DNA from: Armillaria gallica
Taxonomy: Eukaryota; Basidiomycota; Agaricomycetes; Agaricales; Physalacriaceae
Direction of reading: 5' to 3'
Length of the DNA: 64,000 nt
NCBI GenBank assembly: GCA_037576215.1
Contig: JBANDB010000022.1
Span: 1 to 64,000, forward strand
The notes under the pieces were generated by a model. It made no database searches. It saw only the letters and a list, made by a program, of their open reading frames with translations, and had not been told where the DNA came from. Position 1 is the first letter of the stretch. Each line of letters starts with the position of its first letter. A program made the translations under genes and the position numbers. Shown here in pieces: positions 1-4,995 of this stretch.

Positions 1-130
1 CCTAACCCTAACCCTAACCCTAACCCTAACCCTAACCCTAACCCTAACCCTAACCCTAACCCTAACCCTAACCCTAACCCTAACCCTAACCCTAACCCTA
101 ACCCAACCCTAACCCTAACCCTAACCCTAA
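1..130. repeat. Telomere, (CCCTAA)n
   Basis: About 21 tandem CCCTAA units, with one degenerate unit (CCCAACCCTAA) near base 101, start at base 1. The C-rich strand reads 5' to 3' inward, as expected for the left end of a chromosome, so the G-rich 3' overhang would be on the minus strand. The repeat passes without spacer into retroelement coding sequence after base 130. Confidence 0.97.
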
Positions 131-167
131 GTCCATTGAATATCAGCTCGCAGTTGGTCTGAAATAT

Positions 168-2234
168 ATGTTTCACTCACCACGTAAAACGTCTTTAATC
201 AAAGACGCGTGGAATGACTTTAAAGAACGCCTTCGATGGCGCATTTACTTTAGTTTCACTGCGCATAACGACGAAGATTCGTACGATCCGGACTTTGAGG
301 TGCCCCGCTCTCGCGGCAAACGTGCACCCCTGTCCCCGCAATATATAGAAGCTGGCATCCGTGAGGGCGAGCGCTTCGTGTTAGACACGATCGCCAAAAT
401 ACCCACGGAAGAGGAAGTGAGCTACCCGGCCTCCGCGCTGGCCGTCCACCCTCGCCAAATTTCTAAGTTCTTAGAGGATAACGCATATGTAGTTACTTCT
501 ACCGATAAGAACCTTGGGCTCACGGTATCTACGCGCGAATGGATCGACGAAAAGTCAAAAGAAATCGTTGGCGATGTATCAAACTACACGCCCCTTCATC
601 TACTCATGGTGAATGCGATATGCGATAAACAATGTACTGACATGGAAGAAATTGCACTGCTCGCTGAAGCACACCTTCCTAACGGATCACAACTCGGAAG
701 ATTCTTTCGATCGAAGATTACTTCGACAGAAACTCAACATGTGGTACCGACGTTCTACGGCATTCCTAAAATTCATAAGGAACCCGTCAAGATGCGTCCT
801 ATTATACCATGCCACAGCGCTATCCAGAATCCGGCTGCTAAGTACGCCTCTAAAATTCTCAAACCGCTCATCAAAGCGGCGCCAACCATTATACACGGTT
901 CCAAAGACCTGGCGATAAAATTGAGTCAGATTAAATTAACCCCCGGCCGTAACACTTATATCGTTACTGGTGACGTCGTCGCGTTTTACCCTAACATTCC
1001 ATTGGATCACTGCCTTGAAACAGTGCTCGAGCTTTACAAGGAATGGTACGGCGACGCGATTGAAGTCGACAATGAAGAAATGCTCTACGCAGAACAAGTC
1101 TTCATTAAATGTCTTATAACGGGCAATAAAAATCTGGTCTTGCGTTACGGAGACTCATTCTTTAAACAGACATCGGGCCTAGCAATGGGCGTTGCCGATA
1201 GTCCGGACCTAGCCAACCTCTACGGGTACTGGTTCGAACGACGTCTTAACCTAATGAATGATCCGGATATCCCGTTCTACGGACGGTATATCGACGACTG
1301 CCTCGCCATTGTGCACGCTTCAACAGAGTCTGAAGCGCTTGCTAAAATTACAAGGGTGAAGTTCGACGGATGCAAGATAGAGTGGGAAGTGAGCAATCAC
1401 CATCACGAGTTTCTAGACATGATGATATATATCGACGACAAAAACGCGATTCAACACATGCCTTACAGAAAGAGCCGCTCCCACCAAGAAAGAATCCCAT
1501 GGGTTTCATTTCACCCTCTCACGGTAAAACGTGGAACGTTTATTGGGGAAATGTCCCGGCTAGCAACGCTAAGTAGCACTATGTCAAGCTACGACGACGC
1601 CATTCGCAATTTAATTGCGCTCTACGTCTCGCGCGGCTACCCCGCAGACCTTTGTCATAAATGGACAAGAGAAAACTTTACAGAACGTTGGTCAAATCGT
1701 CTCAGGGTGACACCTGCTAAAGACGGAGAGGATGACGGAGTTCTAGTACTCAAATCCGAATACAACACTGCATGGGACTTCTTTTCTGCAAAAGAATTAG
1801 GAGATACTATCGTGAATACCTGGCGTAGTCGCATCGAACAGATCGACCGCCTGCGGACTGCTCCGCAAGATTTATCGGTCCTCTTTGGACAAATCCCACC
1901 GGACAAGGTCCCTTCTGACCTCGCGTTGGAAGTTCAGACCCCCGGAGGGCCCGAGGAGATACCCGATATAAGAAAAATAGGTATTCTCAACCGACGAATG
2001 ATTGTGTCTAAACGCAGGACACGTAATCTATTCGACCTAACTAACCTTTGGAAAAGGATAGTTCTCCTTCGCCTGGATGAAGATGTACTCAATCCCGGAT
2101 ATCAATCGCCCGATTCTGAAGAGTCTGTCGCTAGCGACTCTTCCGATAGAATGGACGTTGATCCGAATATCTTAATCCAAATGAATCAAGCGTTAGCCCC
2201 TGCTGCTCTGCGGCACCTGGGTGCAACGGTATGA
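168..2234 (+). CDS. Penelope-like reverse transcriptase, no GIY-YIG domain
   Basis: The 688-residue ORF encodes a reverse transcriptase of the Penelope-like clade, related to telomerase RT. Visible motifs in order: FYGIPKIHK near residue 196 with the following MRPII, motif A TGDVVAFYPNIP with Asp 269, motif B SGLAMG at 336-341, catalytic YIDD at 374-377, then the HEFLDMMIYID block near 413 and a thumb region containing GEMSRLATLS. The last roughly 200 residues show no GIY-YIG endonuclease, so this is the endonuclease-less terminal type. The frame is open upstream of the Met at 168 and runs through base 131 into the telomere repeats (residues such as YQLAVGLKY precede the Met), so the true N-terminus has been lost and 168 is only the first available ATG. 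No internal stop or frameshift is seen. With its 5' end and promoter gone, the copy is probably not autonomous. Confidence 0.88.
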   Translation: MFHSPRKTSLIKDAWNDFKERLRWRIYFSFTAHNDEDSYDPDFEVPRSRGKRAPLSPQYIEAGIREGERFVLDTIAKIPTEEEVSYPASALAVHPRQISKFLEDNAYVVTSTDKNLGLTVSTREWIDEKSKEIVGDVSNYTPLHLLMVNAICDKQCTDMEEIALLAEAHLPNGSQLGRFFRSKITSTETQHVVPTFYGIPKIHKEPVKMRPIIPCHSAIQNPAAKYASKILKPLIKAAPTIIHGSKDLAIKLSQIKLTPGRNTYIVTGDVVAFYPNIPLDHCLETVLELYKEWYGDAIEVDNEEMLYAEQVFIKCLITGNKNLVLRYGDSFFKQTSGLAMGVADSPDLANLYGYWFERRLNLMNDPDIPFYGRYIDDCLAIVHASTESEALAKITRVKFDGCKIEWEVSNHHHEFLDMMIYIDDKNAIQHMPYRKSRSHQERIPWVSFHPLTVKRGTFIGEMSRLATLSSTMSSYDDAIRNLIALYVSRGYPADLCHKWTRENFTERWSNRLRVTPAKDGEDDGVLVLKSEYNTAWDFFSAKELGDTIVNTWRSRIEQIDRLRTAPQDLSVLFGQIPPDKVPSDLALEVQTPGGPEEIPDIRKIGILNRRMIVSKRRTRNLFDLTNLWKRIVLLRLDEDVLNPGYQSPDSEESVASDSSDRMDVDPNILIQMNQALAPAALRHLGATV

Positions 2235-3053
2235 TTGTAAGTAGTTCGTTACAGTTCTGCGCGCTGTCGTCTTCGCGGGCGGCCAGTGTCGTCGGAGCGT
2301 CCTTGGCTGCCCTCACCCGCGCCTTGGAATGGTCCCCGTTCATTGGGGTTCTTCGCCGTTAGGTGGGGTATCGACTTAGCAATCTAAACGTATGCGTCTG
2401 TGACCAGACGCTTGTAATCCTCTGCCGGTACCTAGTTACCGTATCAGTCGGGACAACTAACGCTTTTCTGCCACAGGCAATTCTTTTTATACAAGACTAT
2501 TTATGTAAAAAACTTACTATAACGTCGATCTTCACGACGCGTTGAGGCTGGTGTGTCCAGCTGGCGGGCTAACCCTAACCCTCCTGTAAGTTTTGACTTA
2601 GCAATAAGTCGCAGCACTCAACTAAGCAAATTTATTGACTTAGAACCCTAACCGCTAACCTAGCACGAACCTAACCGGTACTCGGCCCGACCGGACCGGA
2701 CCGATGGTAATAGGCCCGCTTAATGACGAAATGCCGCCGCCCTACGGGGGCGGGCCTGATTAATAAGCGAATCGACGCTCGGACCCCGGCCTTCGGGCCG
2801 AGCTCCGCACCCACGGAGATGGCTAGTCATCACCGAGTTTGATCACGTGACCTCGGGCTGGTACCCGACTCAGATCACGTGTTAGGTAAGCAAGATTTGT
2901 CAATAATCTTATCTAATCTAGACCGGGCCTAAGCGGCCCGGCCGTTAATCGTACGATTAATTATTTAATGCCGCGGCGCACGGACCATGCCTTTAGCGAG
3001 GCCTTATCCGCGCGTCGTCCTTGAGGCTGCTGCGTAAACGTCACTGAGAGCCA
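2235..3053 (+). other. 3' non-coding region of the element, hairpin-rich
   Basis: No convincing ORF. Perfect inverted repeats are frequent: 2394-2400 with 2405-2411 (7 bp, loop TGAC); CGGCC-TTCG-GGCCG at 2787-2800, or alternatively 2777-2782 with 2798-2803; CCGGGCC-TAAGC-GGCCCGG at 2923-2941; and the 16-bp palindrome TTAATCGTACGATTAA at 2945-2960. GATCACGTG occurs twice, near 2842 and 2872. GACTTAGCAAT occurs at 2373 and 2595. Degenerate telomere-like repeats lie at 2643-2660. This fits a structured retroelement 3' UTR or pseudo-LTR. Confidence 0.55.
2569..2582. repeat. Short internal telomeric repeat
   Basis: CTAACCCTAACCCT in the same orientation as the terminal telomere, preceded by GGCGGG. 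It is the outer of two internal stubs and could be an older attachment point. Confidence 0.7.
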
Positions 3054-3088
3054 ATGGCTATTGTCTCTCATGTCTTGGCAACATGCGA

Positions 3089-3167
3089 CGAACGGTCCCT
3101 GAAGAGCTTTAAAAGCGAAACGGGGTGGGATGGCTTAATCTCCATCCCCCGTTGGACCTCAGTTTCG
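3089..3167 (+). ncRNA. Hammerhead ribozyme, type I, in the element's 3' region
   Basis: All conserved core parts are present in order. Stem I 5' strand GGTCC is at 3094-3098, CTGAAGA (consensus CUGANGA) at 3099-3105, stem II GCTT/AAGC with loop TAA at 3106-3116, and GAAA at 3117-3120. Stem III pairs A3120-T3152 and 3121-3124 with 3148-3151, continues after a GTG bulge with 3128-3133 pairing 3142-3147, and is closed by the loop 3134-3141. The cleavage triplet GTT is at 3151-3153, and stem I 3' strand GGACC at 3154-3158. Predicted cleavage is between 3153 and 3154. A further outer pairing of CGAAC (3089-3093) with GTTTCG (3162-3167) is possible. Hammerheads are known from Penelope-like elements, so the context supports the call. 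Only this copy was found; the 5' end that could carry a second is missing. Confidence 0.88.
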
Positions 3168-3228
3168 CTCACACAGCAAAGCTCAAGAACCCGCCTTTCG
3201 GTGAGTTTCGCTTTGCTCTACGATCCCT

Positions 3229-3281
3229 GCGATCCTTCGGATCGCACCCCCCTCCCAACGCCTTCGGCGAAGGTCGGGGGG
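3229..3281 (+). other. Terminal hairpins of the element next to the telomeric stub
   Basis: GCGATCC-TTC-GGATCGC (3229-3245) is a perfect 7-bp hairpin. It is followed by a nested structure: CCCCCC (3247-3252) pairs with GGGGGG (3276-3281), enclosing CCTTC-GGC-GAAGG (3261-3273). The second structure ends exactly where the telomeric stub begins, which suits a structured RNA 3' end used in end attachment. Confidence 0.6.
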
Positions 3282-3298
3282 CTAACCCTAACCCTAAC
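3282..3298. repeat. Internal telomeric stub at a healed break
   Basis: CTAACCCTAACCCTAAC, nearly three telomere units in the terminal orientation. It lies between the retroelement 3' end and the broken third exon of the membrane-protein gene that follows. Confidence 0.85.
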
Positions 3299-3622
3299 GA
3301 AATGATGGTGACCATGATTTGTTTTCCTCGACCGTTTTCAGACCGTTCCGAGGAAACTATACTGTCGTGTCAGCACGTGTAAATGGCCCAAGTCCCAGTG
3401 TAAGTATACGAACAGATGTTCCACATAGTGGTGCAGAAGACTCCCGTATAGATTCCTGTAATACATATTCAGGATCGACGGAACGTAATCTACCCAGATG
3501 AAGAGAAACAAACCGAAAAGCAACGCTTCCATAATCGTCATATTGAGAAAGATATTGTTGGTCTCAAAGATGATTCGTACGTCTTCCGGGGAAAGGCTGG
3601 GGATTGTTGTCGTCGTCGACAT
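3299..3622 (-). pseudogene. Truncated multi-TM membrane protein gene, cut by telomere addition
   Basis: Minus-strand gene with ATG at 3622-3620. Exon 1 is 3622-3514, intron 3513-3456, exon 2 3455-3410, intron 3409-3362, and exon 3 starts at 3361. Splicing gives a first segment with SLSPEDVRIIFETNNIFLN, then MEALLFGIYTGVFCTTMWNI across the first junction, then a stretch ending KQIMVTIIS. This arrangement (short extracellular N-terminus, hydrophobic ALLFGIYTGVF helix, charged loop, next helix) is that of an uncharacterised multi-TM family frequent in Agaricomycetes. Frame is kept over both introns, so the gene was functional until broken. At 3298/3299 coding sequence stops within a codon and becomes GTTAGGG repeats. 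The remaining helices are absent. Confidence 0.75.
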
Positions 3623-4995
3623 GGCAGTGGAATTTGGGTTTCTGGGGGTAGATTGCTGTATTAATAGGAAAAGGACGCTCGATTCTTATAACGAACTAAG
3701 AGTTGGAGCATCATCTAAGGCTCCGATGCCGGTGGTGAAATCTTCACGCCTGATGGAAGGGATTGAGATGACGCCGAATCGAAGAGGTGGAGTTCATACC
3801 GTAAGGGATATTTTTACCCCAACATGGTTAGCGTTCAAACACGACTCGGAGGCTATTCTCTCGGTATGTGGACCTTAATGACCCTTCCTGTACATGAGTC
3901 CCGACTCAGTTGGCATCGTGAAAATCAATATCAGATCCTGCCTTCGTGATGTAGCCTTCAGTAGAAAAGATGATAGATTGGTCCATGCTTGCCCCTCGGT
4001 GATGCCTGGCCTGTATAGCAACAGACCGTTCAGGTACCAACAAACAGCAGCGGGAGAAGAATTCAACTTACCCACGAGCAGTACCATCTTCCAATTTTAT
4101 GCAAGGATCAGCCGCGGGTCCGAGATACTAAGCGCTAGTAGGCACGAATCAGTAACAAGATGGCGGACCCTAGTGATTAAATCCTGATGCTTATAAGTCA
4201 GCACGGACGTTACTTGCGCCAACAGCTCGCTGCGATTCCTAGACTAACTGTCTCATATCAGTCCCACTTGAAGCAAATATTGCTGTTCACAATTGGTGAC
4301 TTGCGTCGGTCTCTGTTCTGGTAGTGACTTAAAATTGGCTTTGTCAGTTTATGGATCCGGTAAACAATTATCCGGGGTGATTGGAACAGAAGTACGGCAC
4401 TCGTTCACTTGCGATACCGGTCAACTTGAAAGATCAGCCAGGCTGTAGCCAGGCTGTTAGGAGCAAATGAGGAGTGCGCTGACTACCCATGTGTATTCAG
4501 TGAGTATCAAGTGAGTACGTGACCGTCCACTAGAGGATGATCCCACTAGCCACCGGTTATATTTCTGATATAGGATATGCAATCAGATCATCAGCATGAT
4601 CGTCTATTGAATTTACGTTGGATGGATCAGCAGACGGGATTTCGGGATGCAAGGTGGATGTAGTGGATCTAGCCGCGTTAATGTCGCAATGCCGGATGTT
4701 CGGCAAACCGGCAAAGCGCCATTGACAAATAAGGACAACCTTTCCATTTTTCAAACCACAACCGACCCCGGACTTTTCATCCCCTCTACCTCGCGCTCGC
4801 TTGAACGCCAGCCTTGTGACTCTTTTAATGTATTGTCACCTGGTGGCAGCTCCATTCGTCCGCGTCATCTCGCGGCATGAATGAAGATCGACTGGTAATG
4901 CCTTTCTGACCTGACAAGTTCGCCATCTTGCTCACAAATGAATAGCCGTTCCTCCTTTGCTACAATACCCATACTCTGCTTCATCCCTTTACAAC
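3623..4995. other. Intergenic, no supported gene
   Basis: Only short overlapping ORFs without recognisable domains or consistent splice structure. No repeat or RNA gene recognised. Confidence 0.5.

Follow-up and report, generated by a model that had tools for sequence, protein, structure and literature searches.

A conserved hammerhead-type motif near the 3′ end of a telomere-attached Penelope-like element in Armillaria gallica

Our analysis gives good support to the original prediction that a hammerhead-type motif lies within a telomere-attached, endonuclease-less Penelope-like element (PLE) of Armillaria gallica: the anatomy of the element, its copies at ten telomeric ends and the conservation of the sequence block that holds the motif all point to this assignment. 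The window, the stretch of 64,000 nucleotides analyzed here, is the left end of contig C22 in an 86-Mb genome of 28 contigs. We propose that positions 3085-3168, at the 3′ end of the element, form a type I hammerhead (HHR) that serves in a cycle of priming, cutting of read-through RNA and escape from cutting, a model whose chances of being right or wrong we regard as evenly balanced. The parts of the element are as follows.

1-130, forward strand: terminal telomere, CCCTAA repeats running from the chromosome end inward
131-3281, forward strand: endonuclease-less PLE, a 5′-truncated copy whose sense strand runs away from the telomere
168-2234, forward strand: reverse transcriptase (RT) ORF of 688 aa, with motifs GDVVAFYPN and YIDD and no GIY-YIG domain found
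2569-2582, forward strand: internal telomere-like stub CTAACCCTAACCCT, exact in 7 of the 8 copies found covering it
3023-3184, forward strand: strongly conserved block of the 3′ UTR, holding the hammerhead and two hairpin-like stretches upstream of it
3154-3281, forward strand: structured tail of 128 nt 3′ of the predicted cut, with hairpins at 3175-3217, 3228-3246 and 3247-3281
3282-3298, forward strand: telomere-like stub CTAACCCTAACCCTAAC of 17 nt, the 3′ end of the element, followed by sequence that differs copy by copy

The window ORF has lost its N-terminal part through truncation, its frame being open from 102, and its C terminus ends as in its relatives, with an RT and no GIY-YIG endonuclease, as in endonuclease-deficient PLEs. 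Pfam reported no domain in the window protein or in the full frame from contig C20, and RVT_1 alone, in 6 of the 11, when 11 proteins were scanned; because nothing but RVT_1 appears in the scanned proteins we see no endonuclease, a reading that has to be taken together with the facts that Pfam misses the RT itself here and that relatives carry precomputed PF26215 and PF28514. Protein relatives comprise 466 matches at E<=0.001; among the best 120 of these the closest, from Armillaria ostoyae, is 87% identical to the window RT, the other 119 (one from Lentinula edodes) are 44-60% identical, and many are 1000-1200 aa long. PDB searches with the RT as a single sequence and as a profile returned nothing useful, and none of the DNA of relatives sought in viral and prokaryotic collections was confirmed. 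Downstream of the ORF, the 3′ UTR of about 1 kb ends in GGGGGGCTAACCCTAACCCTAAC, and the sequence beyond is not common to other copies. We considered the stub at 2569-2582 as the junction of two elements and rejected this; the stub is common to copies on other chromosomes. It could mark a second priming site or be the relic of an older 3′ end.

Parts of the window element, always including its 3′ end, occur at nine further telomeric ends, so that C1, C2, C4, C8, C9, C11, C16, C18, C20 and C22 all carry it. The telomere pattern has 364 matches in the genome; with 14-20 matches at each of the five completely listed ends, we estimate roughly 20 telomeric ends. Thirteen copies of the element tail were found, 12 of them at these ten ends and one internal, on C19. 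A copy or tail lies directly under the telomere at nine of the ten ends, the exception being C11, with about 90 nt between. In all 13 tail copies the 3′ end reads CTAACCC(T/C)AA, with one to three repeats, and then differing sequence. The 5′ ends other than that of C20 are scattered through the ORF and 3′ UTR, and scattered 5′ truncation is described likewise for endonuclease-deficient PLEs in the available text of PMC3846280. C18 holds a head-to-tail pair, the only clear one, in which the stub of the distal copy (C18a) is joined to the truncated 5′ end of the next (C18b). Apart from C19 and C11, then, the copies are 5′-truncated, telomere-capped and bounded at their 3′ ends by reverse-complement telomeric repeats, as telomere-associated endonuclease-deficient PLEs are, and in the window the hammerhead indeed stands between the terminal telomere at 1-130 and the 17-nt stub.

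Two of these places have features of their own. The roughly 90 nt at C11 (about 125-214 of L019) show no alignment to the window; some 33 nt of them correspond, in inverted orientation, to sequence lying past the element at C20. The C19 copy (C19:1090805-1092861), which lies internally, 1.09 Mb into its contig, is old and has 75% identity across the 3′ UTR. It still ends in CTAACCC repeats, and C-to-T or G-to-A accounts for 64 of the 151 changes that it carries outside the conserved block. It is perhaps a former chromosome end that has become internal.

Direct reading of the window finds every core element of the hammerhead where it had been placed and in the right order, and the distance from the predicted cleavage site to the stub is 128 nt (3154-3281), as claimed. 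The layout, all on the forward strand, is as follows.

3085-3168, forward strand: hammerhead with extended stem I, 3085-3088/3165-3168 and 3091-3093/3162-3164 being added to the 5-bp stem
3094-3158, forward strand: catalytic part of the hammerhead, read directly, matched by a descriptor and intact in copies
3094-3098 and 3154-3158, forward strand: stem I, GGTCC/GGACC, 5 bp
3099-3105, forward strand: core CTGAAGA
3106-3109 and 3113-3116, forward strand: stem II, GCTT/AAGC, with loop TAA
3117-3120, forward strand: core GAAA
3120-3152, forward strand: stem III
3151-3153, forward strand: GTT triplet, with the predicted cut at 3153/3154
3162-3184, forward strand: competing strand, 3162-3169 pairing with 3114-3121 and 3178-3184 with 3104-3110, which excludes the hammerhead

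CUGANGA, GAAA and NUH are arranged around a three-helix junction with stem I open, the organization of a type I hammerhead. Two details of the original prediction need amending. The 5-bp stem I is there as described, and can be extended to 12 bp with two bulges (3085-3098/3154-3168); the long stem III is likewise present, but not as one helix, since 4 bp are followed by a 3-nt bulge and then by 7 bp. A strict descriptor (stem I at least 5, stem II at least 4 and stem III at least 4 bp), composed after the motif was seen, has one match on both strands of the 64-kb window and one in total in 3704 shuffled windows that preserve dinucleotides; a looser descriptor (4, 3 and 3 bp) gives 0.008 matches per shuffled window. 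We take the hammerhead motif of the window to be confirmed as real, with self-cleavage as a prediction from its sequence.

The motif has been kept with little change. Twelve of the 13 tail copies reach the hammerhead, the thirteenth, C20b, beginning just past the cut, and in all 12 of them, the old C19 copy included, no change has touched CTGAAGA, GAAA, GTT or either strand of the 5-bp stem I; the core, whose loss from all related copies had been named as counting against the prediction, is thus intact wherever a copy extends to it. Among the 11 close copies (C20b being omitted from this count), 4 of 162 sites vary in the block at 3023-3184, 51 of 323 at 2700-3022 and 19 of 99 at 3185-3283; the corresponding differences between C19 and the window are 12 of 162, 133 of 323 and 22 of 99. 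From these comparisons we judge the block to be under strong purifying selection, as seen in one genome with few independent lineages. The stems themselves are paired in 99.1% of 216 cells across 8 distinct rows, with two failures, one in C19 and one in C18b, and no compensatory double changes occur in them among these 8 rows, whose sequences are very alike. C19 carries six pair-preserving stem changes, all C-to-T, which we dropped as support for pairing because C-to-T keeps a G-U pair automatically. Directly 5′ of the hammerhead, at 3036-3084, lie the hairpin-like stretches GAGAGCCAATGGCTATTGTCTCTC and CATGTCTTGGCAACATG, both invariant among the 11 close copies.

The covariance check suggested for 3060-3200 went against the prediction: no Rfam hammerhead model reports the motif even at E<=10, neither there nor on 2200-3700, and the gathering-threshold scan of the window likewise contained no hammerhead, the gathering threshold being a detection aid rather than a definition of a type I hammerhead. 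When RF00163 was run over the genome and 73 of 14295 first-look candidates were scored, the window motif was absent from those scored, and one weak place emerged elsewhere, on C5, at 19.3 bits and below the cut-off. This place was dropped as a lead because sub-cut-off matches to RF00163 also turn up in 11 of 14 control genomes. A chance resemblance with no ribozyme function would agree with the silence of Rfam, and with the folding calculations below, in which the hammerhead is not the minimum-energy fold. We consider it highly improbable in view of the single match in 3704 shuffled windows, the conservation of core and block, and the presence in the same genome of a second PLE-like element whose two flanking repeats each hold a canonical hammerhead motif, one of them being listed weakly (E 0.068) by a model of the window hammerhead while the other is not listed.

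Folding calculations suggest that the hammerhead competes with another structure. It was never the minimum-energy fold: in 6 of 6 stretches the enforced hammerhead lay 1.8-7.6 kcal/mol above the free minimum, the cost being greatest for 3054-3185 and 5.2 kcal/mol with the whole tail (3054-3300), in energies that describe secondary structure without tertiary contacts. Ensemble folding of RNA ending at 3160-3165 gives probabilities of 0.75-0.77 for stem I, 0.99 for stem II, 0.67-0.69 for upper stem III and 0.56-0.59 for lower stem III. When the RNA extends to 3170 or further, the probabilities of stems I and II drop to at most 0.03 as the competing hairpin forms, and once the competing strand is present all stems but upper stem III are lost. 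The pairing of this strand is kept in 12 of 12 copies (one cell being a gap), which is no proof of a switch because part of the strand also serves the extended stem I. Further 3′, pairing in the tail fails in 5 of 334 cells and is kept in 98.5%, pairing counts reached by 1 of 500 shuffles, a fraction not to be read as a probability, and the inner part of the last hairpin shows three compensatory pairs, all in the single copy on C16. The element tail is probably a folded RNA.

Alternatively, the hammerhead fold may be mainly a structural landmark, which together with the three tail hairpins would bind the RT and make the telomere-complementary end available for annealing, cleavage being absent or incidental. 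We regard this as possible. It would account for the conservation of the block past the catalytic part on both sides and for the largely kept tail hairpins, including the one with three compensatory pairs in one copy. It also has precedents in the available text of two papers, one saying that the 3′ HHR of Terminons exposes the adjacent repeats with cleavage auxiliary (PMC6431247) and the other that insertion of an anole PLE is unaffected by HHR mutants (PMC11167929). A landmark accords less well with the unchanged CTGAAGA, GAAA, GTT and 5-bp stem I in 12 of 12 copies, a constancy that would seem to exceed the needs of a scaffold, and with an end at the predicted cut on C20.

At the telomeric end of C20 the order is telomere, ACCTCAG... 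tail (136 nt matching 3156-3291), CTAACCCTAA, 34 nt and ATG. The element here measures about 4.6 kb from telomere to stub and has one long ORF, the longest of any copy, whose start aligns with the N termini of relatives of about 1100 aa; among 10 RT matches in the genome only C20 keeps this N-terminal part. The junction between telomere and tail lies 2-5 nt from the predicted cut and is given as a range, 3156-3159, because ACC is common to telomere and tail and the first certain element base is 3159. With 11 random ends in 4.4 kb, the chance of one end within 5 nt of a given site is 0.027, a rough figure for a single junction in a pattern that was noticed afterwards. The C20 start is a first hint that the cut helps to shape the attached RNA.

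An RT stall at the base of the folded hammerhead (the 3′ strand of stem I, 3154-3158), with no cleavage at all, might have left the same mark, since a halt at the entrance to stem I and a cut at 3154 agree equally well with a junction at 3156-3159. This strikes us as rather doubtful: copying passed through the hammerhead in 12 of the 13 tail copies, and a stall leaves unexplained why the only end of this sort is found in front of the longest ORF. Only at C20 does a terminal segment stand on both sides of the ORF (136 nt, 95.6% identical), an arrangement that two attachments could also give. When the first two columns are omitted, the leading tail has 6 differences from the 3′ tail of C20 itself, 2 from those of C18a and C1 and 3 from that of C11; it is therefore nearer to the tails of these copies than to that of the C20 body, as read-through from another copy would give. 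Our reading is that the C20 leader is pLTR-like and that a neighbouring copy's hammerhead, acting on read-through RNA, determined its 5′ end. Alternatively, C20 could record two events: attachment of a full-length copy and, later, reverse transcription onto the end so formed of a 3′ piece (128 nt plus stub) that the ribozyme had released from a different copy. The tail-stub-ORF junction of C20, which resembles other 3′ junctions, and the differences between the leader and the tail of the C20 body would both suit such a sequence of events, which we nevertheless think unlikely, since it requires an initial copy that begins a mere 34 nt upstream of its ATG and is complete while the others are truncated, and since there is just one tail-only piece among the 13 tail copies.

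Taking the hammerhead as a processing site, we picture the cycle as follows. The element RNA would end in the folded tail and CUAACCCUAA, and could anneal to a G-rich 3′ overhang or a broken chromosome end; the element RT would extend the annealed chromosome end and telomerase would then cap it, which fits the junctions. Copies could come to stand head to tail at a chromosome end, and transcription from a distal copy into the next would carry the distal hammerhead, which may cut after 3153. Such a cut would give the downstream RNA a fixed 5′ end consisting of the 128-nt tail and stub, followed by the ORF, a structure that C20 has. The hammerhead at the RNA's own 3′ end would often have to escape cutting if the priming tail is to remain joined to the ORF, and folding calculations suggest that the escape could come about through the competing hairpin once 3166-3184 has been transcribed. 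The rarity of the motif by chance, the invariance of the core in 12 of 12 copies and the conservation of the block beyond its flanks all favor this cycle. So do the common 3′ end of the 13 tail copies, the ten telomeric ends that carry the element, the head-to-tail pair on C18, the order of parts at C20 with a leader unlike the tail of its own body, and the stem probabilities of RNA ending at 3160-3165. It is disfavored because Rfam is silent, the stems hold no compensatory changes and the hammerhead lies above the minimum-energy fold; because a single telomere-capped end out of ten falls at the cut, a pattern chosen post hoc and with a chance of about 3%; and because C20 is equally explicable as two attachments and there is only one plain tandem pair. 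The in vitro results on an anole PLE, given below, count against it as well (PMC11167929). More specifically, and as a tentative extension that we would not call probable, the HHR of an attached copy may process the RNA of the next copy and supply it with the 128-nt leader and stub, so that a pLTR-like cycle depends on a head-to-tail arrangement of copies at a telomere, while the competing hairpin limits cutting by the 3′ HHR to a short transcription window and the priming tail survives.

The genome contains a second PLE-like family. At C16:750192-755384 lies an internal element whose RT is about 29% identical and interrupted by stops; on either side of it stands a 669-bp repeat, the two being 97.5% identical and each holding a CTGATGA ... 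GAAA ... GTC hammerhead motif, to which RF00008 gives 26.1 bits, below its cut-off of 48.5. The repeat has further matches on C2, C3, C4, C5, C8 and elsewhere on C16, some as head-to-head inverted pairs. Of 15 repeat matches, none has either end at the cut predicted for this family (query position 583), the nearest ends being 566, 567 and 572, where 583 is arithmetic on the query and match ends come from alignments rather than from inspection of the loci. These ends speak against a general rule that ends lie at the cut.

Fungal endonuclease-deficient PLEs go by the family name Coprina. Hammerheads were reportedly found in fungal PLEs by Cervera and De la Pena in 2014, and the motif is therefore probably not new for these elements. 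Among the papers searched, none links Armillaria, Penelope and telomere, and just a pipeline paper came up for Coprina with hammerhead; neither result implies absence from print. The window element shares its endonuclease-less RT and telomere association with fungal endonuclease-deficient PLEs as described in the available text of PMC3846280, and we found no feature that clearly separates it from them. PLEs at chromosome ends of Agaricus bisporus (PMC7473861) and an HHR in repeats of the fungus Yarrowia (PMC3088659) are on record in the text at hand from those papers.

The closest parallel in setting is with the Terminons and Athena elements of bdelloid rotifers, which the accessible portions of PMC6431247 and PMC3846280 describe as endonuclease-less PLEs at chromosome ends, 5′-truncated, capped by telomeric repeats and arranged in head-to-tail arrays, with an HHR close to the 3′ end and, downstream of it, reverse-complement telomeric repeats. 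In Terminons the HHR lies immediately upstream of these repeats, and a role in pre-processing of the template is suggested (PMC6431247); because this review describes the same setting, a hammerhead beside a telomere is not new in kind. The rotifer elements can reach 40 kb and carry accessory ORFs, whereas the element described here has, at C20, a single long ORF in about 4.6 kb, so that C20 is not a giant element of the Terminon type; the telomere is TTAGGG, and 128 nt containing three hairpins separate the HHR from the stub, instead of the two being adjacent.

With the pLTR hammerheads of canonical PLEs, as presented in the available text of PMC6155905, PMC7761336 and PMC11167929, our element shares the type I hammerhead and, at C20, a terminal segment on both sides of the ORF. 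The hammerheads of those elements are described as minimal and without helix III (PMC6155905, PMC7761336), whereas the window hammerhead has a long stem III and could therefore act as a monomer; unlike pLTR elements, moreover, C20 holds only the post-cut part on its 5′ side. In the accessible text on the anole PLE in vitro, cleavage needed the protein, HHR mutants had no effect on insertion and reads with either end at the cut were absent (PMC11167929), and a 2020 review, so far as its text was available, called the role of the HHR in PLEs unknown (PMC7761336). If the cut were to define the attached RNA, self-cleavage would be tied directly to the attachment of a retroelement at chromosome ends. 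The kind of element reported here is already known; the addition made by this work, a compact group of copies together with the C20 end, brings the question of processing within reach, since ordinary tools suffice to test the role of the HHR in a fungal element that is small, is present in 13 copies, retains intact ribozyme cores and in one instance has an end at the predicted cut.
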